A stretch of 63,831 bases of DNA from Candidatus Zhuqueibacterota bacterium (lineage in GTDB: Bacteria > Zhuqueibacterota > Zhuqueibacteria > Residuimicrobiales > Residuimicrobiaceae): the NCBI GenBank assembly GCA_963169875.1, contig CAUJEL010000048.1:1-63831 (forward strand). The letters are read 5' to 3'. The notes beneath the pieces were generated by a model that made no database searches, was not told the origin of the DNA, and saw only the letters and a program-made list of their open reading frames with translations. Every line of letters begins with the position of its first letter. Within the stretch, counting starts at the first letter, position 1. Below are positions 47,694 to 63,831 of this stretch, in pieces. Both the position numbers and the translations under genes were made by a program.

Positions 47694-47902
47694 GAATATA
47701 GGGTGCCCTCACTTGGAAATTTCGAGGTGAATTACGACGGATGCAAATCAGCTGCGATCCCTGTGTCACTCCAACAGAAACAGGTATAGAGTTTGGCCTT
47801 GAGGAAGTACTTTACGAAAGATATATCGGGTTGTTTTGATTTGAAAGCCGGGACAAACAAGTGCGTAACTGCGATCCAGAACAATTTTGTGGAACTGGTT
47901 TT

Positions 47903-49345
47903 ATGAACATATCCGAACTGCTAAAGGCCGAAGAAGGCAAGACCCTGGAGTTTAAACAGGATATCTCTTCTCCGCGGAATCTGCTCAAGACACTGGTAGC
48001 TTTTGCCAATACAGCTGGTGGTAAAATAATCATCGGCGTGGAGGACAAAACACGTGAGCCGGTTGGGATCAATAATCCTCTGGATGAAGAGGAACGGCTT
48101 TGTAACCTGATCGCCGACTCTATTAGTCCTCGTCTGGTACCTAATGTCGAAATGACTACTGTTGAGGGGAGAACGTTGCTTGCAGTTGAGGTATTCCTTA
48201 GCAATTCCCGTCCCCACTTTATTCGCTCTGAAGGTCCGGAAACTGGAGTTTACGTCAGGCTCGGTTCCACCAATCGCCAGGCCGACCGGGAGTTGATCGC
48301 AGAGTTACATCGATCTGTTGAGGGAGTTTCTTTTGATGAATTGCCCATGCCGGAATTGTCCAATGGAGATTTGGATCTTATAGCAGTTCAAGAAGTTTTT
48401 GGCACTAGCCGCAAGTTGGACGACAAGGCACTTTTGACCTTAAAGGTGCTGGTCCGTCATCAGAATAAACTGATGCCGACAAAAGGCGGGATTCTGCTCT
48501 TTGGTAAAAAGCGAACGAACCACTTTTCAGATGCATGGATTCAATGTGGCCGCTTCTTTGGTACCGAAAAAATCGACATCTTTGACCATATGGAAATCGA
48601 CGTACCGCTGCCCAAAGCAGTTGATGAAGTGATGCTATTTTTTAAAAAGCATGCATTTCGCGGTGCAGATCTCTCCGAGGTGCGCCGATAAGATGTCTGG
48701 AGCATCCCACTGGGGATTTTGCGCGAGGTGATCATCAACGCCCTTGTGCACAGCGACTATTCACAACGTGGCGCCCCCATTCGGATAGTATTTCTCGATG
48801 ATCGTATCGAAGTGGAAAGCCTGGGGATTCTCTTACCAGGCTTAACCATCGAAGAAATGAAACAAGGCACTTCGCGCATACGTAATCCGGTTATAGCCCG
48901 TGTTTTTAAGGAACTCCACCTTATAGAGCAATGGGGGACTGGCGTGCGCCGCATATTTGCAGAAGCCCGGGACCTGGGTCTTCCTGAACCGAAAATTGAA
49001 GAGATTGGTCTGCGCTTGCGATTTACCGTCTATCTGGCACGATTGCACAGAATAAAGACTGGAGAGAAAGAGACTCAATCAGGGGTAGAGTCAGGGGTAG
49101 AGTCAGGGGTAGAGTCAAAGATGTTTTTCAGAGTACTGTCATTTCTGAAAGAGAATAATTTTTCCAAATCAGAGTTGGCAAAGCGACTTGGCAAAGTTAA
49201 ACCAACCCGTTATCTTAATGACCTGATGGCCAGACTGATGCGTTTAGGATATGTGGAATATACCATCCCGCAAAAACCCAAGAGCCGGCTGCAAAAATAT
49301 CGATTAACTGAAAAAGGTAAAAGCGTACAGGATACTATCAGCTGA
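47903..49345 (+). pseudogene. AlbA_2/Schlafen-type ATP-binding transcriptional regulator, broken by one stop codon
   Basis: From ATG 47903 the frame shows an AlbA_2 (Schlafen-like) domain (EGKTLEFKQDISSPRNLLKT, AFANTAGGKIIIGVEDKT) and an ATPase-like second half. A single in-frame TAA at 48689-48691 interrupts it. The same frame then continues as DVWSIPLGILREVIINALVH, GAPIRIVFLDDRIEVE, VIARVFKELHLIEQWGTGVR and a winged-helix C-terminus. Intact relatives read RR-x-DVWSIP, so the stop replaces one sense codon. No frameshift is needed. It is either a fresh pseudogene, two separately translated pieces (a GTG exists at 48728), or a sequencing error. The 209 bases upstream (47694-47902) hold no clear gene. 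Confidence 0.75.
49079..49114 (+). repeat. 12-base tandem repeat (three units) inside the broken regulator gene
   Basis: TCAGGGGTAGAG is repeated three times, encoding Ser-Gly-Val-Glu units in the linker before the winged helix. A unit length divisible by three allows copy-number change without frameshift. Confidence 0.85.
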
Positions 49346-49795
49346 ACCAAAATTCCGTATAGTACGTCTTGGTCTCAGATTCAAACATCCTTGATTTATT
49401 GTAATGAGAAACGATTGAATTGAAGGATGGATGCAGAGAAACCCGAATACAAAAATTCACCACACCTGTATGAGAGAACAGAGAATTTGATAGTCGAACT
49501 GGATATTCGTAATTGGAAATATGGTATCCATATCTCAAAATAAACGTTTATCAGGTACTCCCATAACAATAATAGTATCGCGAAAAATATATTAAAAATC
49601 CTTTGCGTTTGTCTTTCATTTTTCTAAATTAGATCATAATCAGCCAAACGCAGGGGATGGGTTGTGGATTCTTCATAGTTTTTCCTCTTTTGATTCCTCG
49701 TTATCTTTTTAGACAAAATCGATCCTGTTCAAATCGATTTAATGCCATCCAATTATTGTCCCTTTTTCATTTTAAAACACCAATGGGGTCTGCTG
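49346..49795. other. AT-rich region upstream of the cas operon
   Basis: No gene is recognised in these 450 bases. The sequence is much more AT-rich than its neighbours, which agrees with an acquired island border. A weak candidate promoter for the cas genes is TTTGCG (49602-49607), 17 bases, TAAATT (49625-49630). No terminator for the upstream gene is evident. Confidence 0.35.
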
Positions 49796-52246
49796 ATGAG
49801 TGATGCGAAAGATCGGGCACTCCTTCTGGGAGCCCTTTTACACGACATTGGTAAATTTCGGATGCGCCAGGATAAGCCCCAGGCCGGAAGAGACCACAGT
49901 ACCATCGGGGCTGAATGGGCCAAAAGTTATGTAATGCAAAATCTCCCTCCTGATGTTCCCAATTTGATTCAGTGGCACCACAAAAAGTATTGGGATGATT
50001 TCCACGAGTATAACGATAATCTTATCGTCTATCAAGCGGACAATCTTGCCGCCCAAAGTGAACGGGAACACAAGGACGATGCCGAGTTCAAGTCAGACGC
50101 GCCCTTGACCGCCATCCTTTCGACCATCCGGCTGGATCAAGACAACGAACGGGCCTATTGGCCCATGACGCAGTTGGATGGCCATCTGATATTTCCGGAA
50201 AAGAATCATTCTGGGCTTGCAGGGCCAGAAAAATACAAAATGCTATGGGAAAAATTCGATCAGGATTTTTCTCTTTGGTGCCGCGCGGGCTGCCATGTGA
50301 ATGGTCTTTTAGCCCTGCTGGAACAATATACCAGTTTCATCCCCTCTGAAACATTATGGTCCGATGCCGATGATAAAGCCAATCCGGACATTTCTCTATT
50401 CGATCACTGCAAGTCAACGGCCGCGATCGCGATCTGTTTGAAAAGAGTCCTTGAAGAACGGCTTGGTGCGATCAATAACCATCAGGATTTGGAGCATGCC
50501 ATTCTGGATGGGCAGCAGGAATATTTTACCCTGGTCGGGGGCGATCTGTCCGGCGTGCAAAATTTTATCTACACCATCTCTTCTCGTGGCGCCTTGAAAA
50601 CGCTGCGGGCCAGATCCTTTTTCCTCGAACTTTTGTGTGAGCATCTTGTCAGTCAGTTGCTGCAAATGCGCGATCTGGCGCGCACCAACATCATTTATAC
50701 CGGCGGCGGCAGGTTCTATCTTTTGGCACCGCATGGCGACAAGACTACAACAGCTCTGACAAAACTGGAGCAAACCTGCAACCAGTGGCTGATCGATCAA
50801 TTCGGTGGAACACTCATGCTGGTCACGGCGCAACAGGCATTTTGTGGTGATGATTTCAAAACAGCACATATCAGCGACATCTGGAGCCAACTCAGCGCCA
50901 GGCTTAATGAAAAGAAACGGCAAAAATACACGCCATTTCTTGCGCAGATGCTGGCGCCGGCTGAACCGGTGATGGCTGAGACTAGTTGCCAGATTTGTCA
51001 CCGCGATGATGTTAAAGTGCGGCCATCGACGCGTGATGAAAAAATTACAGCCATCTGTTCATTCTGTGACCATATTCTCGAATTAGGGTCGCAATTGCCT
51101 CGCTGTAAATATATCGTGCAGAGCAGTTCAGGGACCGATGCGTTGGCGCGACTGGAAGTGTTTCCGGATTTGACCGAACAGAATGCCAGCACTTTGTATT
51201 TTTACGAAAAATGGCCTGCGGCCGCATCCAGCCGCATGGTTTATGCCATCAATGGCGAGGGACTGTATAAAATGGATCACCCCAATCTGGCTGATTTGCA
51301 GGTCAGTGTTTACGCCCGGCGGCAGGGACAACTTGATGGTGGCGCCGAAAAATCGACCGGCATGGCAAGTTTTGAAGATTTGGCACAAGCCGCTGCCGGG
51401 AAAGCCATGATTGCGGCTTTGCGGATGGATGTGGATAACCTTGGCGCCATTTTTATACGCGGCATCCAAACTGAAAAACGTACCTTCACCAGACTCGCAG
51501 CTCTATCGCGGCAGTTCTCCTTGTTTTTCAGATCCTATGTCGATACACTGCTGGAAGGGAGACATGTGCCAGATAATCTTCCGCTTGCAGATTTCAGCGG
51601 CAAGCATCCGCGCCAAAATGGACGCAATGCAGCGGTCGTATATTCCGGTGGGGATGATCTTTTTATCGTGGGCGCCTGGGATGAAATTGCTGAAATCAGT
51701 TTCGATATCCATGATTGTTTTCAGCTCTTTTGCGCTCACAATGCCAATGTAACGCTGTCGGGTGGTTTTGTTTTTCAGCATCACGATTTTCCACTCTATA
51801 AACTGGCTGATTTGGCCCAGGCGGCTGAGCAGTCGGCAAAGGATGCTGGAAGAAACCGGCTTGCCCTTTTCTATGATCCTGACCTTGATGCCGTCCAACA
51901 CGGTAAAATGAATGCACTGGTACAAACAGTGACTTGGAATGATATGGAAAGCCGGGTGATCGAACCGCTGCAAAAGTTTTTACTGTTTGGAAAAATTATC
52001 TCGCAAAATGGGCATGCGCATTTCGATTTTCAAAAAATAAGCAAGAGCGATTTGGGCAGACTGTACCATATCATGCGCACCTGGGAAAGAGAAGGGGTGA
52101 TGTATCTGCCGGCCATGGCCTATATCCTGGGTCGCGCTCATGAGGAGTTTCGAAATTCTGAAATGGCTGTCAAGTTGATGGATCCGGAATATGTGCAAAA
52201 TCTGAGAAATAGTATACTCTGGATTACCATGCTTTCAAGCAAATAA
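49796..52246 (+). CDS. csm1: Type III-A CRISPR effector Cas10/Csm1
   Basis: The large subunit of the Csm complex, 816 residues. On target RNA binding it cuts DNA with its HD domain and makes cyclic oligoadenylates with its palm domain. HD: LLLGALLHDIGKFRMRQ (His16-Asp17). A C4 zinc site is at Cys398, Cys401, Cys421 and Cys424 (SCQICHRDD ... CSFCDH). Palm: LRMDVDNLGAIF and VVYSGGDDLFIVGAW, with an intact GGDD at residues 618-621. I start at ATG 49796 because the HD motif then begins at the usual distance; the frame is open to 49742. All catalytic residues look functional. Confidence 0.95.
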   Translation: MSDAKDRALLLGALLHDIGKFRMRQDKPQAGRDHSTIGAEWAKSYVMQNLPPDVPNLIQWHHKKYWDDFHEYNDNLIVYQADNLAAQSEREHKDDAEFKSDAPLTAILSTIRLDQDNERAYWPMTQLDGHLIFPEKNHSGLAGPEKYKMLWEKFDQDFSLWCRAGCHVNGLLALLEQYTSFIPSETLWSDADDKANPDISLFDHCKSTAAIAICLKRVLEERLGAINNHQDLEHAILDGQQEYFTLVGGDLSGVQNFIYTISSRGALKTLRARSFFLELLCEHLVSQLLQMRDLARTNIIYTGGGRFYLLAPHGDKTTTALTKLEQTCNQWLIDQFGGTLMLVTAQQAFCGDDFKTAHISDIWSQLSARLNEKKRQKYTPFLAQMLAPAEPVMAETSCQICHRDDVKVRPSTRDEKITAICSFCDHILELGSQLPRCKYIVQSSSGTDALARLEVFPDLTEQNASTLYFYEKWPAAASSRMVYAINGEGLYKMDHPNLADLQVSVYARRQGQLDGGAEKSTGMASFEDLAQAAAGKAMIAALRMDVDNLGAIFIRGIQTEKRTFTRLAALSRQFSLFFRSYVDTLLEGRHVPDNLPLADFSGKHPRQNGRNAAVVYSGGDDLFIVGAWDEIAEISFDIHDCFQLFCAHNANVTLSGGFVFQHHDFPLYKLADLAQAAEQSAKDAGRNRLALFYDPDLDAVQHGKMNALVQTVTWNDMESRVIEPLQKFLLFGKIISQNGHAHFDFQKISKSDLGRLYHIMRTWEREGVMYLPAMAYILGRAHEEFRNSEMAVKLMDPEYVQNLRNSILWITMLSSK

Positions 52247-52267
52247 AACTAACTTGGGAGGTTTTTG

Positions 52268-52717
52268 ATGAACCAGAATAAACCTTATAACCCTCCAAAC
52301 CAGGGGCCTGATGTTGCCAGGGCGATTGTAGATAAAATTGGCAAACTGGACAACTTGGCTGCGTTGAAGGGACAAGAACTGGTAGACTATGCGAATGATC
52401 TTGGAAAATTTTTAAAAGAAAGAGAGTTGAAAACCAGCCAGATACGCAAATTCCTGGATGCGGTTAAGCGATTAAAATATCTCGAAAGGAATGATAGGGG
52501 CTTTGATTTTCGCAACGAGGCCATGATGATAAAGCCCAAATTGGCTTATGCATCAGGAAGACAGGAAAATCCCAAAAAACCTAATCCAGTGCGGCCGTTG
52601 ATGGACGTTATGAATATTTGTATAGATAAAATTAGGGGCAGAGAAGATTTTGAAAAATTTGGTCAATTTGTCGAGGCTATTGTAGCCTATCACAAATATT
52701 ATGGCGGAAATGAATAG
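52268..52717 (+). CDS. csm2: Csm2, type III-A small subunit
   Basis: A 149-residue helical protein, the small subunit that forms the minor filament of the Csm complex along the crRNA-target duplex. The C-terminal 100 residues are typical (LKTSQIRKFLDAVKRLKYLE, MIKPKLAYASGRQ, FVEAIVAYHKYYGG). GGGAGG lies seven bases before ATG 52268. It sits in the usual order between csm1 and csm3. Confidence 0.93.
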   Translation: MNQNKPYNPPNQGPDVARAIVDKIGKLDNLAALKGQELVDYANDLGKFLKERELKTSQIRKFLDAVKRLKYLERNDRGFDFRNEAMMIKPKLAYASGRQENPKKPNPVRPLMDVMNICIDKIRGREDFEKFGQFVEAIVAYHKYYGGNE

Positions 52718-52731
52718 TAGGAGAATTGATC

Positions 52732-53535
52732 ATGTCAAACGAACGGCAAAAACCAATCATCGGCAAAGTGATTATAAAAGGTTCACTCAAGTGTGAGACC
52801 GGTTTGCATATTGGCAGCTCCAAGGACAACCTGGAAATTGGCGGCTTGGACAGTCAGGTGGTCCGGGATCCTGTTTCCCGCGAACCTTATATCCCAGGCT
52901 CCAGCTTGAGAGGAAAACTGCGCAGTATATTTGAACGCCAGCAGGGGGTGGAATTCAATCGTGATAGTGGACAAGGCGTTTACAGGCACGAATGTACAGA
53001 TAAAACTTGTCCGGTTTGCCGGCTTTTCGGGGCAACAGGGAGCAAAGAGGGCGAAAATCAGCCCGCACGGCTGGCTATCCGCGATATCCGGTTGACGGGT
53101 GAGAGTAGAAAAATGCTGGAATCGATCGATACCGGCTTGCAATATACCGAACTCAAATTTGAAAATGCACTGGATCGAATAACTGCATCAGCAAATCCGC
53201 GCCAGATCGAACGTGTGCCAGCCGGCGCTGAATTCGACTTTGAAATGGTTTATACGGTTGAGACGCAAGATAAAGAACAAGTTGTGAAGGACCTGCAACA
53301 TATCATCGGTCTTTTGAATATGCTCCAGGACGATAGCCTCGGCGGGCATGGCGCCAGGGGTTATGGCAAGGTCACCATTAACTTCAGCAAAGACAAACCA
53401 GCTTTTCAGATTCGAAAGACCGGATTTTATACTGGCCAGGATAAAATCCAGAATGAAAAGCACTTTATCGTGGAAACGATGGACCAGGCATTGTCGGACG
53501 TGATAAATATGGCCATTTTCCTGGATCTCCATTGA
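52732..53535 (+). CDS. csm3: Csm3, RAMP backbone subunit and target RNase
   Basis: A 267-residue RAMP protein that polymerises along the crRNA and cuts target RNA every six nucleotides. The catalytic aspartate is expected in EIGGLDSQVVRDPVSREPYI (GLD-x-x-VxRDP). PGSSLRGKLRSIFE is the RAMP motif, and DDSLGGHGARGYGKVTI is the glycine-rich loop. Cysteines in CTDKTCPVCRLFGATG are typical of Csm3. The ATG at 52732 lies behind GGAG. Confidence 0.95.
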   Translation: MSNERQKPIIGKVIIKGSLKCETGLHIGSSKDNLEIGGLDSQVVRDPVSREPYIPGSSLRGKLRSIFERQQGVEFNRDSGQGVYRHECTDKTCPVCRLFGATGSKEGENQPARLAIRDIRLTGESRKMLESIDTGLQYTELKFENALDRITASANPRQIERVPAGAEFDFEMVYTVETQDKEQVVKDLQHIIGLLNMLQDDSLGGHGARGYGKVTINFSKDKPAFQIRKTGFYTGQDKIQNEKHFIVETMDQALSDVINMAIFLDLH

Positions 53536-53548
53536 GGAGCAAATTCCT

Positions 53549-54496
53549 ATGCCCGATTTATTATTGAAGTTTAATTTTAGCTCACCTCTGCGTATAGGCC
53601 GTGAAGAGATCGATTTGCAGGGCATCGCTGATGGCTTGCATTCGGACACGCTCTTCAGTGCCGTTTGTCACACGCTGGCAGAGCTCTATGGACATGCCTG
53701 GGTTGATGAATGGTTGAGCAAATATTGTCAAAAGCCGGATTTTTTGCTTTCTTCGGCATTCCCATATTACCAGAATACCTGTTTTTTACCCAGGCCCTAT
53801 CTGCCAGCCCCTGAAGGCGTTGCCAATGCCAGTGACCCCAAATTTTTCAAAAAATTACGCTGGATAAGCGTTGCAGCGCTGACAAAATGGCTGCACGACA
53901 ACGCCATGGATGTTGAGGTTGTCCAAGGGGAGCATAATTCGACGAAAAGTGCGTTCATAGAGTACACACTACCCCGGGTCGCCCTGGATCGTGTCACCAA
54001 TGCATCAAATATCTATTATTGTTCGCAGCTGAGTTTCCAGCCGCAAGGCGGTTTGTATTGTCTGCTCAGACTCATCAACCCGGATTTTCAAGCCGTGCTG
54101 GAAGGCGCTTTTGCCTATCTGGGCGAATGTGGACTGGGCAGTGAACGCAGCAATGGTTATGGCCGGTTTGAGCCCGTCTGGGAAAATCCCGGCGCCGACT
54201 GGGCAACATTGCTTAAAGCCCAGGGCGACCGCCACTATCTGCTGAGCCTCTATCATCCAAAAGAAGATGAAAAAATATCAGAGAGCGCCCAATATGGTCT
54301 GCTGCATCGCCGCGGCTGGTTTTACAGCGTGAGCACAGGTAAGCAATACAAACGCCGCAGTGCGTGGATGCTGCAAGAAGGCAGCATTTTGGTTGCGCAA
54401 CCACAGGGACACTTGCTGGACGTCACGCCCTCTGTTTGCTCAGCGGAGCATCATCGCATTTTTCGGTGTGGGCTGGCCTTAAGTCTGCAATTCTAG
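53549..54496 (+). CDS. csm4: Csm4, RAMP cap subunit
   Basis: A 315-residue RAMP protein that holds the 5' tag of the crRNA next to Cas10. GREEIDLQGIADGLHSDTLF, FSSAFPYYQN-type region and the glycine-rich YLGECGLGSERSNGYGRFE fit the family. Gap to csm3 is 13 bases, and it is 11 bases before csm5, as expected for one operon. Confidence 0.93.
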   Translation: MPDLLLKFNFSSPLRIGREEIDLQGIADGLHSDTLFSAVCHTLAELYGHAWVDEWLSKYCQKPDFLLSSAFPYYQNTCFLPRPYLPAPEGVANASDPKFFKKLRWISVAALTKWLHDNAMDVEVVQGEHNSTKSAFIEYTLPRVALDRVTNASNIYYCSQLSFQPQGGLYCLLRLINPDFQAVLEGAFAYLGECGLGSERSNGYGRFEPVWENPGADWATLLKAQGDRHYLLSLYHPKEDEKISESAQYGLLHRRGWFYSVSTGKQYKRRSAWMLQEGSILVAQPQGHLLDVTPSVCSAEHHRIFRCGLALSLQF

Positions 54497-54507
54497 GGAA
54501 AAATATT

Positions 54508-55671
54508 ATGAAATTATCCTTGCGAACCACTACGCCCCTGCATATCGGGGGCTCGAATGTGCTGACTCCTATGGATTTTGTGCAGCATGCCACTTTTTTA
54601 TATGTCATTGGAGAAGGCAAGTTAGCGGCTGTTTTAGGACAGCATCATTTGATAGATGATTTCGTCACTGAGATGGCTCAATCGGGGCGAAATTTTAATC
54701 TCACCCGTTATCTGCAAAAAAAAGGTCTGCTCACTCCAGAAATCATCGAAGCGGTTTCATTGTACAAATCCAGACTGTTGAGTAATGAACCCAGGGAAGT
54801 CCGCACTTTTATCCGAGATGCTTTTGCCCGGCCATTCGTCCCCGGTTCTTCCATCAAAGGGGCTTTGCGTACAGGTGTTCTTTACAAGGTTTTAAAAAGC
54901 CTGCCGCAAGGAGAAAGAGACAGACGATTGCTGCAGCCGGTGAAACAGAATCTGCTGCAGATTAGGGAAGACAAAGATAAATGCGCAAGTATTGGCTCGC
55001 GTTTTTCTACAGAGCGCTACAAGAAAAATTTTACGAAGGATCTGGAAAAGGATTTGATGCAAGGCTATGATTTGCCGGGAAACCCGGGACAGGCAGACCC
55101 AAAATATGATTTGTTTCGCTGCCTCAAAGTGCGTGATTGCGCCCCGCTTTCTGCGAACGCCCTGGCGATTTACCCTGTGCGGATTTACAGTGCACGGCGG
55201 CAAGATATAAAAAAGGACACAGTCATCCTGGCCGAGTGTTTTCCTGCCGGCCAATCCTTTACGTGTGAAATCCTCTTCGATGAGAACCTTTGGCATGATT
55301 TTTCTGCATCCAACAAAACTACTCATTGGGGGGTACCCCTGTCGCAATTCGATGCCTGGCTGCGCGAACCCTGGTCATGCCTGCGTGAGATGTGCCAGGA
55401 TGTGATCAGTCATGAGCGCACGTTTTTTGAAAAAGAGTTTGGCATCGAAGACTCTTTTCTGCAGAATGCGGATTTGCGCCTGGGATGGGGCGGCGGACTT
55501 TTATCTGCTTCGATCAGTCTGCTTTTGCCGCCTGATTTGCGCCGTGAAATGCGCAATCTGTTGTTTGTCCCCAGGGATGACGCGCCTGCGCCCAAATCGA
55601 GAAAAGTGATTGAACGAAACGATGAGCCCTTCTATTCAATGGGTTGGCTCAAAATCGATCAACCGAAGTAA
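54508..55671 (+). CDS. csm5: Csm5, RAMP subunit at the crRNA 3' end
   Basis: A 387-residue RAMP protein capping the 3' side of the Csm filament and linked to crRNA maturation. It begins MKLSLRTTTPLHIGGSNVL, and FARPFVPGSSIKGALRTGVL is the Csm5 signature. NADLRLGWGGGLLSASISLL near the end is the glycine-rich loop. The open frame extends back to 54364 only as an overlap with csm4. ATG 54508 is the family-consistent start. Confidence 0.94.
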   Translation: MKLSLRTTTPLHIGGSNVLTPMDFVQHATFLYVIGEGKLAAVLGQHHLIDDFVTEMAQSGRNFNLTRYLQKKGLLTPEIIEAVSLYKSRLLSNEPREVRTFIRDAFARPFVPGSSIKGALRTGVLYKVLKSLPQGERDRRLLQPVKQNLLQIREDKDKCASIGSRFSTERYKKNFTKDLEKDLMQGYDLPGNPGQADPKYDLFRCLKVRDCAPLSANALAIYPVRIYSARRQDIKKDTVILAECFPAGQSFTCEILFDENLWHDFSASNKTTHWGVPLSQFDAWLREPWSCLREMCQDVISHERTFFEKEFGIEDSFLQNADLRLGWGGGLLSASISLLLPPDLRREMRNLLFVPRDDAPAPKSRKVIERNDEPFYSMGWLKIDQPK

Positions 55672-55687
55672 TGAAGGAACTATTCGC

Positions 55688-57175
55688 ATGGCTTACACCC
55701 TTTTTTATATGGTTGGTAAATCCGACGTGCAAATCAACCAAATGCCAGTCAAGCAGGAATATTGGCAAGTCTGTCAGCAGTTAAAAAAGCTTGTTTTGAA
55801 ATCCAAACCTGCGGATGTCGATTATGATGTTCTAAATGGTCGTATCAGGTTTTTGCAAACGCAGGAAATTCACATACAAGATGACACCATCCCTGTTGCC
55901 TCGGTCGATTTTCCCATCTTTGCTGCGCTGACAAAAAAGCTGAAACCGTCACCTGACCAATATCTCATAATTGCCACGCAACAAAAAAGCAGGCAACACC
56001 GTCAGAGCGATACCTGGCAGGCTGCAGAATTATTGGCGATATTATTAAAAAAAACGCACCCACAAACCATGGTTGAAATGGTTAAAATTGATAAAAATCC
56101 AAGTGACTATGACCTCATGGCGGATTTTTTTGCGGAATTTACCCGATCACATAGAAAGGCCCTTACCAACAGCCTGCAGAATTACTATTGCTTGAGTTCT
56201 GGCACACCAGCCATGATTTTATCTTTCAGTTTGGCGGTGTTGCCTTATAATCTGATTTATCATTATGTGCCCAACGACAAGCGTCACACCGCAAAAGTGA
56301 TACGTCAATTCGACGAATTCAGAAAAAAGCAGTATGCACAACAAATCGACATTCTGATTGGCAGTTTTCATTATGCAACAGCGCTGCAAATAATTGGCGA
56401 GTCACCATTTCGCAACGATGATGTGTTGGTTCAGATCGTCAGTGCGTTGGATGCACGACAGAGGTTTGCATGGTCTGAGACGATAAAAATATCCAGACAA
56501 ATTGAACCTTCCGCCCAAAAATATTTTTCGTGGATTTCCCATCTGCAGAATCAGGATATTGGATATTATTTGCTGGAGATGCTGGCAAGGATAGAGTTGG
56601 CGATCAGCCAGAAAGACCTCCAGGTGACCCTGGCATGGCTTTTTAATATTCTGGAGAATTGCAGAAATTTACTCCTGCAAAAATATATTGGTATTGAAAT
56701 TAAGCCCGTGAAGAAAGATAAAAAAAACACCTTTCCTGCATGGGAAAAATATATCAATACTTCAGGATTATTTGCCGACAATGAAAAGGATGATTTGTTA
56801 TTTTTTGGCCCAAGCCGGACAAATGTATTAAAGGTTTTGAAAAGGAAACTTTTATTAATGAACCAAGATGTAACTATTTCTGAAAAAGATAAAACTAATC
56901 TGAAGGCTGTCATTGATTTTCTAAAAAAAGTGGAAAGTAACATCAACCTGGAAGATGGCAGCAATAAATCGTTGCAGCAGCTTAGAAATGAGGGCCCCTT
57001 CGCCCATGGCATTCATGGAATAGAACAGGGCTTGTTTGAACAGATTTGGCCCGGTTCGGGCGTGCACGGTTTTTTGCATGAATTAAAAGATTTTGTCAGC
57101 AGGCTCACGCCGATCCCATATAAAGAAAATCCCTTTCAAAAACTTAACACCATCATAAAGACGCATCTTCACTAG
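55688..57175 (+). CDS. csm6: Csm6-like CARF-HEPN ribonuclease
   Basis: A 495-residue protein. The N-terminal CARF-type Rossmann fold (YTLFYMVGKSDVQ, YLIIATQQKSRQ, YYCLSSGTPAMILSFSLAVL) would bind cyclic oligoadenylate from Cas10. The C-terminal half is helical with the HEPN ribonuclease motif LRNEGPFAHGIHGIE (Arg433-x6-His440). Together they make a cOA-activated, non-specific RNase that causes dormancy during infection. The start is ATG 55688 behind AAGGA; the frame upstream overlaps csm5. Its length (a little above classical Csm6) leaves room for a divergent linker. Confidence 0.9.
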   Translation: MAYTLFYMVGKSDVQINQMPVKQEYWQVCQQLKKLVLKSKPADVDYDVLNGRIRFLQTQEIHIQDDTIPVASVDFPIFAALTKKLKPSPDQYLIIATQQKSRQHRQSDTWQAAELLAILLKKTHPQTMVEMVKIDKNPSDYDLMADFFAEFTRSHRKALTNSLQNYYCLSSGTPAMILSFSLAVLPYNLIYHYVPNDKRHTAKVIRQFDEFRKKQYAQQIDILIGSFHYATALQIIGESPFRNDDVLVQIVSALDARQRFAWSETIKISRQIEPSAQKYFSWISHLQNQDIGYYLLEMLARIELAISQKDLQVTLAWLFNILENCRNLLLQKYIGIEIKPVKKDKKNTFPAWEKYINTSGLFADNEKDDLLFFGPSRTNVLKVLKRKLLLMNQDVTISEKDKTNLKAVIDFLKKVESNINLEDGSNKSLQQLRNEGPFAHGIHGIEQGLFEQIWPGSGVHGFLHELKDFVSRLTPIPYKENPFQKLNTIIKTHLH

Positions 57176-57184
57176 AAAGTCATT

Positions 57185-58147
57185 ATGCTGATTGATTATT
57201 CGCAACTCCAATTACCGGTTGCCAGGCTAAGATTTGTTTTTACCGCGATAACGCCGCTTTTTTTGCCCGAATATACCGGTTCCACATTCAGAGGCAGCTT
57301 TGGCACGGCATTCAAAAAAATCTGCTGCGCCGCACCCCAGCGTCCTGCCTGCCCCGGATGTCCCTTCCTGGGCGATTGCGCCTATGCTTACATCTTTGAA
57401 ACACCGCAAACAGGCCAATCCGCACTGCAGGCCACCAACCTGCCGCATCCATTCGTGTTTGAACCGCCGCTCAGCCAGGAGCGCTCAACCATAGAGGCCG
57501 GAGAACAACTGCAATGCGGCATGGTGCTTGTGGGCCGGGCCATCGAACACCTTTTTCATTTTGTGCTGGTTTGGCATGAAATGGGACGTCAGGGGATCGG
57601 AAAACAACGCGGGCGTTTTACGTTGGACGCCGTATACAATGAAAGAAATGAATGCATTTATCAAACAACGACAGGCATCCTGAAAAACAATCTCTGGGTG
57701 CGGCAACCGCTTGATTTCGTGGATGACACTGCTCCATCCGGATGCACGCTTGAAATACATACCCCTCTGCGTATCACCGAGATGGGAAAACTGTGCCGCG
57801 ACGTCTCATTTTCACTGTTCTGGCGCAATCTTCTGCGCCGCGCTTCCTTGTTGGCCTCTGTGCATACGCCGCAAACGTGGGAACTGGATTACACAGCCAT
57901 CATTTCTGAGTCGGAAAAGATATCTGTTACCAGAAGAAATTTGCGCTGGTGGGATTGGGAACGCTATTCCAACCGGCAGCAGCGGCGTATGCAGTTGGGT
58001 GGTATGGTGGGAAAAATGAAACTTACGGGTGATTTGGCGTTGTTTTGGCCCTTGCTCTGTTTCGGGCAATATATCCATGTGGGTAAAAATACCACCTTTG
58101 GCATGGGAAATTATACTCTGCAATCGCTTTTTTCGGAGGAGCACTGA
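57185..58147 (+). CDS. cas6: Cas6 pre-crRNA endoribonuclease
   Basis: A 320-residue RAMP nuclease that cuts within the repeat RNA. LFLPEYTGSTFRGSFGTAFK opens the first ferredoxin fold. A cysteine-rich CCAAPQRPACPGCPFLGDC stretch and YIFE follow, typical of the DUF2276-type Cas6. The C-terminal glycine-rich loop is HVGKNTTFGMGNYTL. The repeat in the array can fold a CCAG/CTGG hairpin just before an 8-base ATTGCGAC tag, a sensible Cas6 site. The start is ATG 57185; the ribosome site is weak. Confidence 0.93.
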   Translation: MLIDYSQLQLPVARLRFVFTAITPLFLPEYTGSTFRGSFGTAFKKICCAAPQRPACPGCPFLGDCAYAYIFETPQTGQSALQATNLPHPFVFEPPLSQERSTIEAGEQLQCGMVLVGRAIEHLFHFVLVWHEMGRQGIGKQRGRFTLDAVYNERNECIYQTTTGILKNNLWVRQPLDFVDDTAPSGCTLEIHTPLRITEMGKLCRDVSFSLFWRNLLRRASLLASVHTPQTWELDYTAIISESEKISVTRRNLRWWDWERYSNRQQRRMQLGGMVGKMKLTGDLALFWPLLCFGQYIHVGKNTTFGMGNYTLQSLFSEEH

Positions 58148-58163
58148 CTCATGAGGTAAAACC

Positions 58164-61088
58164 ATGAAAAGTGATTCATTGTGGCTGAAAATTACAGATC
58201 AGAATAATTTTTACCGGGCCTGGGAACGTCTGCGAGCTAATATGGGCGCGCCGGGAATTGACCGGACTACCATAGCCGATTTTGCCGCGCAAGAAGAAGC
58301 CAACTTGACGCTTCTGCAAAAAATGGTGCAGGAAGAAGCCTATGCACCACTTCCCTTTCTTACGTTCGTCCAAAATAAAAATGGCAAACAACGCACACTT
58401 CACATCCCTGCGTTGCGCGATCGGTTGGTACAGTATGCTGTACTGCAAATAATCGAACCGGTCCTTGAAAAACTGTTTTTGCCTTGCTCGTATGCTTACC
58501 GTCGGGAAAGATCCGCCATAAAAGCCGCAGAAAGGGTGGAGCGCTGGATCAAAAAAGGCAAGAAATGGTTTTACGATGCGGACATTGAACAGTTTTTTGA
58601 TTCCATCGATCGCACGCTTCTCGCCACCCAATTGGGAAAATATCTGCCTGAGCAAAAACTGGTCAAGCTGATCATGTTGCCGGTCCATGCCTACGCAACA
58701 GCCAACCACGCCGGGATTCCTCAGGGTATGATCTTGTCGCCCATTCTTTCCAATCTCTATCTTCATGAGTTTGATCAAAGCATGCAATCTGACAGGCATA
58801 GTTATTTGCGTTACTCCGATAATCTGCTTGCCCTATGCGATGATGAAGAGCATGCTTCCGAAATTTGGCAGCAGGTGCAGGTGCAATTATCTGCGTTAAG
58901 ACTTGCGCTCAATGAGAAGAAAACGTCGACTGGTCCCATAGATGCGGGTTTTGTTTTTTTGGGATTTCATTTCGATGCGAGAGGCCGGAGGCCGGCTTCG
59001 AGTTCCTGGAAGCAATTGCAGGATAATATCCAACACACGCTGCAAAACAGTCATGCTTACACACAAACCAAAATGACGGAGAAATTGGAACAGATCATTC
59101 GCGGTTGGCTTAACTATTTCCAGTTGCCTGACCACCCCGAGTCGTGGTCCACCCATGCTGCGGAGCCATCCAATTCTTTTGATCCCATTGGCACTATAAT
59201 TTATCGTGCTGCTGTGGCGCTGCACAAGGGTGACTTTGCCGCTGCTCAGGAAACACTGTCGCAATGCACGGAGCCTATTCAATCCGCCGATATCAATTGG
59301 CAATGGGGTTTCATCTGTCAGCAACTCGGTTTGGAAGCCGAAGCCAGGGATAGCTACATCTCCGCGTTGCGGGAAAATCCCGACCAGGCAGATGCCTCAC
59401 TGGGGCTGGGTTTAATCTACCTTCAGGAAGGCCAATACGACAAGGCGATCAGGTTTTTGCAAAAAGCAGTCAGCTTGCAGCCGCAGACGGCATTCGCCCA
59501 TTTTGCATTGGGTCTTGCATTGCAAAAATACAATCTGCATGGCGCCGCCCGCAAGTCTTTCCTGCAGGCGGCGCAGTTAGACCCGCAGTTGTCCCAACTG
59601 CCTGAGGCATCCTCTGTTGAGGAGGACCAAAACGTAAAAGGCTATTCGTTCACACAGCAAGATATTGAAACGCTGCAGCATCTGTTCATTGGCCGCGAAG
59701 GCGTTTTCGCCCGTCAATGGTTGCATGATGACGGCCGCATCGGTTACAGCACGCACCGCCAGCCTCTTACCACGGATGAGTGGTCAAAACATTTGCGCGG
59801 TGAGCAAACACTCGGATTATATCCGGTTCGTGCTGACCAGACATCATTTTTGCTTGTCATTGACCTGGATCTGAGCAAACAGGTTCTGGGCGAATTTATT
59901 CACAAGGAGAGTGATCGGGCTGCCTGGATGGATTTAGTACTGCAGGATGCCATCCGGCTGCAAAAGCAGACCAATCAGTTAAAAATGCCTTCCTATATTG
60001 AAGATTCTGGTTCCAAAGGTTTGCATCTCTGGTATTTTTTTAATGAACCCTTGCCCGCAAATGACATGGGGTTGTTTTGCAAAAGACTATTCGACCTCGC
60101 CGGGAGACCACCTGAAGGCGTAAGCCGTGAAGCTTTTCCGCACAAAGGCGAAACCGCTTCAGGATTGGGGTGTCTCATCAAATTGCCTTTCGGTATTCAT
60201 CAGTCCAGTGGCCGCAGGTGTCTTTTCATGGAAGCCTCCGGCAAATACAATGCCAGCTGGCTCTACCCTTTGCCAGCGCCCGAGCGCATCAGCGCCAATG
60301 CTTTTTATGAGGCTTTGGCGAAACTAGGTGCTGGCACGTCGCACTCTCCTGCGGATGTGGAAAATGCATTAGAAATTGCATCTGTTCAGGAAGTATTGCA
60401 GGGATGCCATGTCTTGCGTTATCTAAAAGAAAAAGCGCAAAAAGAAGGCCGCCTGAATCATCTGGAGCGCCTGACTTTTTTGGGCACCCTCGGCTATATG
60501 GGGGAAGATGGCCGGAACGCGCTGCATGCCGTGATGCGGCACACCATAAACTATAACTTTCGCATCACTGACCGCTGGAGTACACGATTGAAAGGGAATC
60601 CGCTCAGTTGCCCGAAAATCCGGCAATGGCATCAGGATATCACGCCTGCGGTCGGCTGCTATTGCAAGCTGGCTCAACCCGAAGGATGTTATCCCTCGCC
60701 GTTGTTGCATGGCAAAAGCGGCGACTATGCGCGGTTGCTGCGGAAGCAAGCCAGGTCACAAGCGATTGTGCAGATCGAGGCGCCTTTGGACAAGGACGAA
60801 GACAGGTCGAGCGGCGGCGCAACACTTCAAACACCAGGCATCCATCCTGAAGGAGAGACAGTAGTAAAGCATGCACCGGCAGTGGATCCAAAAGAACTGG
60901 ACGCATTGGTTCGTCAGTTCATCAAGATAAAAAAAGAGGAACGGCAGCTCGAAGGAAAGAGACAAGAACTGGAAAGACGTCTGAATCAGTGGTTTGAGAA
61001 TACTGGTTGCGAGGAGTTACCAACAGCATTTGGCAAACTGCGCCGTGTGGATCGCGAACACAGCGTCAGTTGGATCATAGAGATATAG
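58164..61088 (+). CDS. Reverse transcriptase-TPR-primase/polymerase fusion (CRISPR-associated, RT-CAPP type)
   Basis: A 974-residue multidomain protein. Residues 1-330 are a group II intron/Cas-type RT: motif A FYDADIEQFFDSID (Asp140), GIPQGMILSPILSNLYL, then RYSDN (217-220 YSDN where YxDD is usual), GFVFLGFHF and IIRGWLNYF (thumb). Residues about 345-480 are TPR-like helical repeats (ADASLGLGLIYLQEGQYDKA). Residues about 495-720 are an archaeo-eukaryotic primase-polymerase: FLLVIDLDLSK (Asp567, Asp569), SGSKGLHLW (His621) and KLPFGIHQSSGRR (motif III). Residues 740-850 carry Cys748, Cys816, Cys832/834 and Cys842, like the PriL iron-sulfur domain. A C-terminal coiled coil follows. It lies between cas6 and cas1, 13 bases before cas1, so a role in spacer acquisition is likely. 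Confidence 0.92.
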   Translation: MKSDSLWLKITDQNNFYRAWERLRANMGAPGIDRTTIADFAAQEEANLTLLQKMVQEEAYAPLPFLTFVQNKNGKQRTLHIPALRDRLVQYAVLQIIEPVLEKLFLPCSYAYRRERSAIKAAERVERWIKKGKKWFYDADIEQFFDSIDRTLLATQLGKYLPEQKLVKLIMLPVHAYATANHAGIPQGMILSPILSNLYLHEFDQSMQSDRHSYLRYSDNLLALCDDEEHASEIWQQVQVQLSALRLALNEKKTSTGPIDAGFVFLGFHFDARGRRPASSSWKQLQDNIQHTLQNSHAYTQTKMTEKLEQIIRGWLNYFQLPDHPESWSTHAAEPSNSFDPIGTIIYRAAVALHKGDFAAAQETLSQCTEPIQSADINWQWGFICQQLGLEAEARDSYISALRENPDQADASLGLGLIYLQEGQYDKAIRFLQKAVSLQPQTAFAHFALGLALQKYNLHGAARKSFLQAAQLDPQLSQLPEASSVEEDQNVKGYSFTQQDIETLQHLFIGREGVFARQWLHDDGRIGYSTHRQPLTTDEWSKHLRGEQTLGLYPVRADQTSFLLVIDLDLSKQVLGEFIHKESDRAAWMDLVLQDAIRLQKQTNQLKMPSYIEDSGSKGLHLWYFFNEPLPANDMGLFCKRLFDLAGRPPEGVSREAFPHKGETASGLGCLIKLPFGIHQSSGRRCLFMEASGKYNASWLYPLPAPERISANAFYEALAKLGAGTSHSPADVENALEIASVQEVLQGCHVLRYLKEKAQKEGRLNHLERLTFLGTLGYMGEDGRNALHAVMRHTINYNFRITDRWSTRLKGNPLSCPKIRQWHQDITPAVGCYCKLAQPEGCYPSPLLHGKSGDYARLLRKQARSQAIVQIEAPLDKDEDRSSGGATLQTPGIHPEGETVVKHAPAVDPKELDALVRQFIKIKKEERQLEGKRQELERRLNQWFENTGCEELPTAFGKLRRVDREHSVSWIIEI

Positions 61089-61101: not shown

Positions 61102-62085
61102 ATGAATCCTATTTACATATGTGATCAGGGTGCTATTTTGCGGCAAAAAAGCCGCACTATCATCATCGAGAAGGAACGCAAAAAGCTGCTGCAGATGCCG
61201 GTCATTAAAATTGAACGGATTTGTCTCTATGGCAACATTCAAATCACAACCCAGGCGATGAATTTGCTGATGGAGTCCGGTGTCGATGTCGCTTTTTTCT
61301 CCCTGGCTGGCCGGTTCCGTGGCCGCTTGTTGGCTGTGGAATCGAAAAATGTCATTCTGCGCCTGGCCCAGTACGAGCGCTATCTCGATGAGTCTTTCCA
61401 GGTAAGTCTGGTGCGTCACCTTGTTGGCGCTAAAATAAAAAACGCCCGGGCGCTGCTGAAGAAATATATGCAAAACCATCCAGAGTGCGATATTGCCAAA
61501 GAGATAGGCGCGCTAGAGCAAGTCATGGCACAGTTGCCGGATCAGAAGAATGTATCTTCTCTCCGCGGCAGTGAGGGCATTTCTGCGGCTTCTTATTTCC
61601 GTGGATACGGCAAATTATTTCGCCGCGAGCTGGTCTTTGAACAGCGCAGCCGCCGTCCGCCGAGGGACCCGGTCAATGCGTTGCTCAGCCTGGGCTACAC
61701 CATGATCACCAATGAAATGATGGGCCTGTTGCTGGCACATGGTTTTGATCCCTACATTGGGTTTTTGCATGGTATCGTATATGGCCGGCCCTCTTTGGCT
61801 TTGGATATGATTGAAGAGTTTCGCCATCCGGTGATTGACCGGCTTACCTTAAAGCTGTTTAACAAACGGATAGTCCAGAGATCGGATTTCCAGACGGATG
61901 AGAACAACGGGGTTTTGTTGACCGAAGAGGCGCTCAAAAAATATTTTTCCAACTATGAATCCTGGATGCGCGCCAAGGAAGAAAATGCCAAATCGTATCG
62001 GGATTTGATGCGGCGGCAAGTGCAGCGTCTGAGTATGGCGATACAACAACGCAGGGATTATCATCCTTATGTCCTCGAGCAATAA
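61102..62085 (+). CDS. cas1: Cas1 spacer integrase
   Basis: A 327-residue metal-dependent integrase that, with Cas2, inserts spacers at the leader end of the array. The catalytic set is visible: Glu158 in LRGSEGISAASYF, His223 in GFLHGIVYGRPSLALD and Glu238 in DMIEEFRHPVIDR. It is a standalone Cas1, not fused to the RT. It starts at ATG 61102 and overlaps cas2 by 17 bases. Confidence 0.96.
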   Translation: MNPIYICDQGAILRQKSRTIIIEKERKKLLQMPVIKIERICLYGNIQITTQAMNLLMESGVDVAFFSLAGRFRGRLLAVESKNVILRLAQYERYLDESFQVSLVRHLVGAKIKNARALLKKYMQNHPECDIAKEIGALEQVMAQLPDQKNVSSLRGSEGISAASYFRGYGKLFRRELVFEQRSRRPPRDPVNALLSLGYTMITNEMMGLLLAHGFDPYIGFLHGIVYGRPSLALDMIEEFRHPVIDRLTLKLFNKRIVQRSDFQTDENNGVLLTEEALKKYFSNYESWMRAKEENAKSYRDLMRRQVQRLSMAIQQRRDYHPYVLEQ

Positions 62086-62371
62086 GACATTTTTACTGGT
62101 TTCATATGATATAAGGGAAGACGCGCGGCGTACCCGCGTAGCCCGGCAATTGCAGGATTATGGCCAGCGTGTGCAATTCAGCGTGTTCGAATGCTTTTTA
62201 AATAAGGAGGAATACAGTGAAATGCTAAATAAAGTCAAAAAATACATTGATATGGACAAGGACAACCTGCGTATTTACAAAATTTGCGGCACGTGTTGCC
62301 GCCGCATTGAATCTTATGGAATTGGGCGCGGCTGGCGCGAGGGTGACGATGAACAGATTATTGTCATCTAA
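62069..62371 (+). CDS. cas2: Cas2
   Basis: A 100-residue ferredoxin-fold protein forming the central dimer of the Cas1-Cas2 integrase. FLLVSYDIREDARRTRVARQ carries the conserved Asp, and GQRVQFSVFEC is the second signature. It starts inside cas1 (ATG 62069), so translation is coupled. It is the last gene before the leader and array. Confidence 0.95.
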   Translation: MSSSNKTFLLVSYDIREDARRTRVARQLQDYGQRVQFSVFECFLNKEEYSEMLNKVKKYIDMDKDNLRIYKICGTCCRRIESYGIGRGWREGDDEQIIVI

Positions 62372-62553: not shown

Positions 62554-63831
62554 CTTTAAAAAGCAGCCAGGCCTCATACTGGATTGCGACTTGGGTGGGC
62601 TGTTAAGGCCCCGGACAGCATAATCAACCTTTAAAAAGCAGCCAGGCCTCATACTGGATTGCGACTTTTATCAGCAGCATTTTTACCTCTGCATCATGTT
62701 TGACTTTAAAAAGCAGCCAGGCCTCATACTGGATTGCGACTCAGAAGGTAGCAGTACCAGCTGAACCTGTGAAGATGTTCTTTAAAAAGCAGCCAGGCCT
62801 CATACTGGATTGCGACCATATACTTTTTGCATTCTGCACAAGGCTCATTATTAAACTTTAAAAAGCAGCCAGGCCTCATACTGGATTGCGACATAGATAC
62901 CACCGAGCAGCAGCACCACGTGCGCCGCGTCTTTAAAAAGCAGCCAGGCCTCATACTGGATTGCGACTGTCTGTTATTCCTTGAAGCCCGGCGGTTGGTC
63001 ACTCTTTAAAAAGCAGCCAGGCCTCATACTGGATTGCGACTCTGATAATTCCTCATCTTCGCGCTTGTCGAACGCAGGCTTTAAAAAGCAGCCAGGCCTC
63101 ATACTGGATTGCGACGTATTACCTTGTTTGTATACATCAGCTGCGAGTGTCTTTAAAAAGCAGCCAGGCCTCATACTGGATTGCGACCTCATGATTGCCA
63201 ATCCTGCTGACGCTTGATAATCTCACTTTAAAAAGCAGCCAGGCCTCATACTGGATTGCGACTATGTATAAGTTAGGCCGGGGAAAAACTTACCCCGATT
63301 CTTTAAAAAGCAGCCAGGCCTCATACTGGATTGCGACCCGAGAAGCTTTAAAGCTTGCCGGGGCTATTTTTCTTTCTTTAAAAAGCAGCCAGGCCTCATA
63401 CTGGATTGCGACAAAAAAGAAAAAAACGGCTGACGACGACAAATAATTTCTTTAAAAAGCAGCCAGGCCTCATACTGGATTGCGACATACAGGGGCAGCA
63501 ATAGAGTGCTACTAACAAGCGTTCTTTAAAAAGCAGCCAGGCCTCATACTGGATTGCGACCTACATAATAAGGCAATTGATATTGATAGCCATCTTGCTT
63601 TAAAAAGCAGCCAGGCCTCATACTGGATTGCGACGAATAATGATCAATGCGCTGCAGCCAATCTACATTACCTTTAAAAAGCAGCCAGGCCTCATACTGG
63701 ATTGCGACATATTTCTTCTTGTTTTGGCATTGTGTTTTTCTCCAAGCTTTAAAAAGCAGCCAGGCCTCATACTGGATTGCGACATAGGGCGGCCTTGCTC
63801 ATCAAACCAGCCGCAATCCTCCTTTAAAAAG
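62554..63831 (+). CRISPR. CRISPR array, type III-A, 17 full repeats plus a partial 18th (continues past window)
   Basis: The 37-base repeat begins CTTTAAAAAGCAGCCAGG and ends ACTGGATTGCGAC; all 17 full copies look identical. Repeat starts: 62554, 62629, 62704, 62780, 62856, 62931, 63004, 63079, 63151, 63226, 63301, 63376, 63450, 63524, 63598, 63672, 63747; the partial copy starts at 63822. The 17 spacers are all different and 35-39 bases long (mostly 37-38). Within the repeat CCAG and CTGG can pair across an 8-base loop, and the 8 bases that follow, ATTGCGAC, are the expected crRNA 5' tag. The array adjoins cas2 through the leader. Confidence 0.98.

Follow-up and report, generated by a model that had tools for sequence, protein, structure and literature searches.

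CRISPR-associated fusions of a reverse transcriptase (RT) with an archaeo-eukaryotic primase (AEP) type primase-polymerase (Prim-Pol), the CART-CAPPs, are a named and biochemically characterised class of proteins encoded together with separate cas1 and cas2 genes (Zabrady et al. 2023, PMC10415136). In both members tested, from Caloramator australicus (CCJ33120) and Geobacillus lituanicus, the RT performed synthesis and the Prim-Pol was inactive, and in the RT-dead controls both aspartates were mutated together, which killed the tested members (PMC10415136). The Caloramator protein, CaCART-CAPP, has 713 residues with the Prim-Pol at 322–521, and no TPR has been described for it (PMC10415136); the reason why these fusions retain an inactive Prim-Pol was left open by Zabrady et al. 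For the CAPP of Marinitoga, both primase/polymerase activity and association with Cas1-Cas2 have been shown (PMC8211822). Production of prespacer DNA for Cas1-Cas2 from RNA or single strands has been proposed, and partly shown in vitro, for CAPPs (PMC8211822) as well as for CART-CAPPs (PMC10415136). RVT, AEP and PrimPol are also named in a figure legend, on adaptation-module associations, of a large CRISPR survey (PMC10910872).

We analyzed a DNA stretch of 63 831 nt (here called the window) that encodes a protein related to these systems (Table 1). A single unbroken frame of 974 residues with RT, TPR and AEP domains had been predicted, and this agreed well with the analysis: the ORF started with ATG, had no internal stops and coincided exactly with the predicted frame, and each of the three domains was matched by a Pfam profile, with RVT_1 at residues 70–269 (1.4e-28) and the GIIM maturase/thumb at residues 283–321 (3.6e-6) in the RT half. 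The Gam-like tail at residues 912–974 was absent from the four-part domain list of that prediction. The NCBIfam model NF040561, ‘CRISPR-associated primase-polymerase type A1’, matched residues 359–939 over nearly its full length with 312.5 bits, well above its curated cutoff of 200 bits, and the window protein therefore consists of an RT followed by a whole type A1 CAPP. All features of such a CAPP were present, i.e. the TPR, the AEP with its DxD, His and acidic residues, and the Cys-bearing C-terminal domain (CTD). The predicted structural model had a mean pLDDT of 77 and a pTM of 0.39, and thus supports the domain folds only, not their arrangement.

Table 1. Features of the type III-A locus and of the fusion protein in the window
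Feature	Position	Strand	Evidence or remark
cas10/csm1	49742..52246	+	HD; GGDD at residue 636; TIGR02578 1e-186
csm2, csm3, csm4, csm5	52265..55671	+	NCBIfam equivalogs
Csm6/Csx1-like CARF-HEPN effector	55610..57175	+	TIGR02672 1.5e-12; PADLOC Csx1 1.4e-30
cas6	57185..58147	+	PF10040 1.9e-19
RT-TPR-AEP-CTD-Gam fusion protein, putative RT-CAPP adaptation polymerase	58164..61088	+	974 aa
Group II-intron-like RT domain, residues 1–325	58164..59138	+	Fingers/palm and GIIM-like thumb; RVT_1, GIIM
RT motif C, YSDN replacing YxDD (Y217 S218 D219 N220)	58812..58823	+	Codons TAC TCC GAT AAT
TPR repeats, residues about 345–480	59196..59603	+	Pfam TPR_2 about 375–480 (6e-14); helices in predicted model
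AEP/Prim-Pol domain, residues 497–700	59652..60263	+	Pfam AEP-TOTE 500–694 (2.7e-30)
CAPP CTD, residues ~745–850	60396..60713	+	Invariant C748, C816, C832, C834
Mu-Gam/Gp157-like TOTE C-terminal domain, residues 912–974	60897..61085	+	PF22709 (Mu_Gam-Sipho_Gp157-TOTE) 914–974, 1.4e-13
cas1, separate gene	61102..62085	+	PF01867 1.2e-93
cas2	62069..62371	+	PF09827 5.6e-24
CRISPR array	62555..63831		17 identical 37-nt repeats, spacers 35–39 nt, runs to contig end

The surrounding locus is a complete type III-A CRISPR system, as the original prediction of a type III-A acquisition-module setting had it, with the csm genes, cas10, cas6, cas1-cas2 and the array all identified. The fusion ORF lies 16 bases from cas6 upstream and 13 bases from cas1 downstream, the latter being precisely the gap that had been claimed. 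The array has the repeat CTTTAAAAAGCAGCCAGGCCTCATACTGGATTGCGAC, and its spacers gave no matches to phage records; no tRNA was found in the window. Further upstream on the forward strand, an SLFN_AlbA_2 ORF (47861–48688) is followed by an ORF (48719–49342) with a RecG-type HATPase_c_4 and a Fic-like C-terminal domain, and the two look like halves of one AlbA/Schlafen-ATPase protein broken by a stop.

Like the CART-CAPPs, the window protein combines a group II-like RT and an AEP Prim-Pol in one polypeptide, operonic with the cas1-cas2 of a type III system. It differs from CaCART-CAPP in being 974 residues long and having a complete TPR-containing CAPP A1 and, going by the published description of the CART-CAPPs, in having intact AEP motifs together with an RT box that reads YSDN, the catalytic states being compared as motifs here and assays there. 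With the type A1 CAPP of Marinitoga (TPR-AEP-PriCT; PMC8211822) it shares the AEP fold and the cas1-cas2 neighbours, but neither that CAPP nor 20 RT-less loci from Thermodesulfobacteriota carry an RT. RT-Cas1 and Cas6-RT-Cas1 fusions (Marinomonas mediterranea) similarly use a group II-like RT for a type III adaptation module, although these RTs are fused to Cas1 instead of a CAPP and have FADD or YADD as motif C in the aligned examples. The UG10/DRT RTs with an AE_Prim_S-like primase are also associated with an AEP-type primase but belong to a different RT class that is not the CRISPR class (PMC8934634), and the PADLOC models for ‘PrimPol - adaptation polymerase’ and for RT adaptation matched the window protein far better than did the UG10 model. 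The four-part architecture with a separate Cas1 had been regarded as unusual, which must be revised, since RT-CAPP fusions with separate cas1-cas2 are already a named class; this architecture varies a known theme, and only its complete TPR-containing type A1 CAPP half is unusual.

The full fusion was found in 5 of 82 genomes of the window's phylum, source genome included, the other four proteins having 36–41% identity to that of the window, and the gene order was unchanged in those with readable flanks. Chance joining or misassembly could thereby be ruled out, since five genomes carry the fusion with a kept gene order. The order cas6 - (a CARF or Csm6 gene in some) - fusion - cas1 - cas2 (- CRISPR array) was common to the window and to the same-phylum and archaeal fusions with readable flanks. 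The archaeal one, from a Methanophagales archaeon (L036), has the same architecture, frameshifted at an A-run. The gene between cas6 and the fusion encodes a Card1-type CARF nuclease in L154 (8748–9932) and L156 (1095–2240), and a Csm6 HEPN protein in the Methanophagales locus L153 (9753–11030). Two CART loci were found in genome G420, which is of the class of G084, taken as Clostridia from hit behaviour and record labels (that of G085 being taken as Bacilli on the same grounds). One of these (L150, 5909–8780) has the same architecture, RT-AEP-CTD-Gam, with an A-run frameshift within the AEP that may be a sequencing error, decay or a programmed shift; the other (L151, 5724–7634) is an RT-CTD-Gam protein with RVT_1, CTD and Gam, from which the AEP is gone. 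Another genome of the same class encodes a 544-residue RT-CTD-Gam protein without AEP directly ahead of cas1 (L152, 5185–6816).

CAPP matches were found in 54 of 395 genomes of the phylum of G923 (Thermodesulfobacteriota by record label), where RT-less CAPPs are common, and among 20 of these CAPP A1 loci cas1 was found in the retrieved stretch of 18 and an RT domain in that of none. Searches elsewhere gave weak evidence of absence: G420 was the only one of 58 sampled genomes of its order to carry a match, none of 400 genomes from G924's phylum (labelled Chloroflexus) had any, and the Caloramator/Geobacillus CART-CAPP was not met among 391 genomes of G084's class or 346 of G085's. The nearest loci by taxonomy, L010 and L014 from the window's own family, encode a separate RT of the FADD type next to cas1-cas2 in place of the fusion, showing that adaptation modules vary within this family. 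A phage or plasmid origin was also considered and rejected, as no fusion was found in IMG/VR (one unrelated RT match only), phages (distant AEP primases only) or plasmids (group II RTs and AEP-helicases only). The AEP-TOTE and Gam/Gp157 domains occur, judging by their Pfam names, also in TOTE conflict systems, and DRT-type RTs act in defence, and both facts would fit with a fusion whose function is DNA repair, or with an independent anti-phage polymerase that merely happens to be sited in the operon. We find this highly improbable in view of the cas1-cas2 adjacency retained by every fused relative whose flanks could be read, from one bacterial phylum, Clostridia and an archaeon, the presence of cas1 at 18 of the 20 RT-less CAPP A1 loci and the binding of Cas1 by CAPPs (PMC8211822).

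The RT half was related to group II maturase RTs, both in a sequence search against the PDB (E 7e-37) and through its predicted fold, which matched 5hhl with a TM score of 0.84. In the alignment its YSDN fell exactly on the YADD of the group II RT structures. Among 91 alignable RTs, motif C was YSDN in four (the window, L004, L006 and L007), and its last two positions were DD in the 87 others. The YSDN box was thus carried by four of the five same-phylum fusions, from four species, and since it is common to four species an assembly or sequencing error could be ruled out. As for the other fusions, motif C was YADD in L005 and L036 and YSDD in the Clostridial one. The canonical box with two aspartates is hence lacking in the window fusion, unlike in the tested CART-CAPP members, but membership of that class is by homology and architecture, independent of the state of the RT box. 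In the RT tree, the four YSDN proteins formed a clade with a modest support of 95/81 and with L005 as sister, nested in a clade of same-phylum fusions (100/95). The AEP+CTD tree left this branching order unsettled but had a branch (88/87) that set the seven RT-fused proteins apart, which is compatible, with moderate support, with a single fusion event.

It seems unlikely that YSDN marks a decaying RT, because the RT palm is conserved no less than the AEP (41–63% against 36–45% identity among the YSDN members) and because the RT keeps every catalytic and structural residue that hardly varies, if at all, in an alignment of 15 rows. A mobile group II intron or retroelement RT was rejected as an explanation, as this was the sole RT of its kind in the source genome at E <= 1e-3, as it lies inside a cas operon and as no Rfam family matched within the window. 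Four CRISPR-linked RTs from Chloroflexota (L060, L063, L068 and L093), for which the motif region remained unaligned, may have an insert separating motif A from motif C.

With regards to the effects of an asparagine at this position, the first motif-C aspartate is indispensable in viral polymerases, and changes of the second lower activity or alter metal use; birnavirus and Mononegavirales RNA-dependent RNA polymerases naturally carry Asn at the second position, with metal use moving towards Mn2+ (PMC4634563). The original prediction of one protein that copies RNA and also primes and extends DNA presumes that both active sites work, yet the RT box is YSDN, and it also goes against the published pattern of an inactive Prim-Pol half in both tested CART-CAPPs. 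Both activities in one chain are possible but are not the default expectation. An arrangement with two active polymerases, in which the RT would make cDNA from RNA and the AEP would prime and make the second strand, could explain why both halves are constrained at 36–41% overall identity with the AEP intact; it would be consistent with the activity of the xDN polymerases of birnaviruses and Mononegavirales, and Asn at the second position would fit with the Mn2+ dependence of CART priming as described in the passage of PMC11014452 that cites Zabrady et al. We nonetheless judge this arrangement unlikely, as the second motif-C position was described as aspartate in all RTs by a structural survey (PMC3394715), as all 87 other RTs aligned here have DD, and as no tested CART-CAPP has two active polymerases (PMC10415136).

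The AEP half was found to be related to the Marinitoga CAPP, with E 3e-26 in a sequence search against its crystal structures (7nqd/7nqf) and a predicted fold matching that of its primer-initiation complex (7p9j) with a TM score of 0.89, which places residues 495–720 inside the primase-polymerase superfamily as originally predicted. The catalytic residues D567, D569, H621 and E656 were all intact, as were the DxD, His and Glu in all five same-phylum fusions and the Methanophagales fusion. D567 and D569 aligned with the metal ligands D177 and D179 of MpCAPP, mutation of which abolishes activity (PMC8211822), and E656 is, in our reading of the alignment, probably the third acidic ligand. The intact motifs may not guarantee activity. 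AEP activity also does not always seem to be required, because an RT-less TPR-CAPP beside cas1 (L175/L180, 687–2549, reverse strand), with no RT within 9 kb, has lost its DxD (AALSVRV) and the His of motif II (RFRLW) and is apparently kept without catalysis. The cysteines C748, C816, C832 and C834 of the CTD were invariant among the relatives, and the corresponding domain of CAPPs has been termed PriCT-like (PMC8211822). Of the PriL-like cysteine domain proposed earlier, a conserved four-cysteine domain thus stands, but the link to PriL was not confirmed, as no PriL match for the CTD was obtained by profile against the PDB or by fold, the Cys-rich end of the model being of low confidence.

Three patterns exist beside cas1-cas2, namely the published one with an active RT and an inactive AEP, one with an intact RT box and the AEP deleted (L151 and L152) or frameshifted (L150), in all cases with a DD box, and one with an intact AEP and a YSDN RT. 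What stayed constant across these patterns was the CTD, in most cases along with the Gam-like tail; neither polymerase did. As the Clostridial relatives keep RT, CTD and Gam either without AEP or with a frameshifted AEP, the two polymerase halves appear separately dispensable, and the fusion resembles a fixed scaffold associated with Cas1, on which either of the polymerases can lose ground, a pattern that comes from a small sample and is not a statistical result. As far as we have found, four features are apparently new, although earlier sightings are possible: a complete TPR-type A1 CAPP joined to an RT, the occurrence of this fusion in an archaeon, Clostridial forms with the AEP deleted, and a conserved YSDN box.

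Based upon these features, we consider it somewhat probable that the fusion is the DNA-synthesis subunit of type III-A adaptation, with the Prim-Pol as main enzyme and the YSDN RT being slow, Mn2+-leaning or dead. The gene order with cas1-cas2, the match to CAPP A1 and the intact AEP motifs all support this reading. The protein would most likely bind Cas1-Cas2 and turn captured single strands into double-stranded DNA prespacers, either making or completing them. The AEP Prim-Pol would probably be the main primer-making and extending enzyme in the YSDN lineage, being favoured because its motifs are intact while the RT box is altered, and the RT would probably be retained to bind the template and to carry out slow synthesis that leans towards Mn2+, or else be catalytically dead, with the TPR, CTD and Gam-like parts forming a constant scaffold. 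The roles could also be the reverse, with the RT performing all synthesis (RNA and DNA priming, extension and strand displacement), the AEP being a silent relic and YSDN being tolerated. The biochemistry of CaCART-CAPP and GlCART-CAPP (PMC10415136), the Clostridial relatives with a DD box and a deleted or frameshifted AEP, the well conserved RT of the window and the finding that changes of the second aspartate in many viral polymerases lower rather than abolish activity (PMC4634563) would all agree with such an RT-driven enzyme; we still hold it to be improbable, since the AEP catalytic residues are fully kept in all same-phylum fusions, as for a working enzyme, and since the catalytic change sits in the RT and not in the AEP.

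With the Prim-Pol as the probable main enzyme, the YSDN lineage looks like a mirror image of the tested CART-CAPPs, having an intact Prim-Pol and an altered RT box. A bolder outcome, which we believe to be only fairly unlikely, is that an active YSDN RT, slow or using Mn2+, hands short cDNA to an active Prim-Pol in the same chain, by which the second strand would be primed and completed; this would be the first CRISPR adaptation protein with two working polymerases, or else one with the published hierarchy between RT and Prim-Pol inverted. The RT, if active, would then be to RTs what the xDN enzymes of birnaviruses and Mononegavirales are to RNA polymerases. The two-metal mechanism of RTs could also be usefully tested on such a natural enzyme, in which xDN replaces xDD. 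The lineage furthermore makes it testable whether a CRISPR adaptation polymerase needs one active polymerase of either kind on a fixed CTD/Gam scaffold, and whether the choice of polymerase decides if spacers can derive from RNA.
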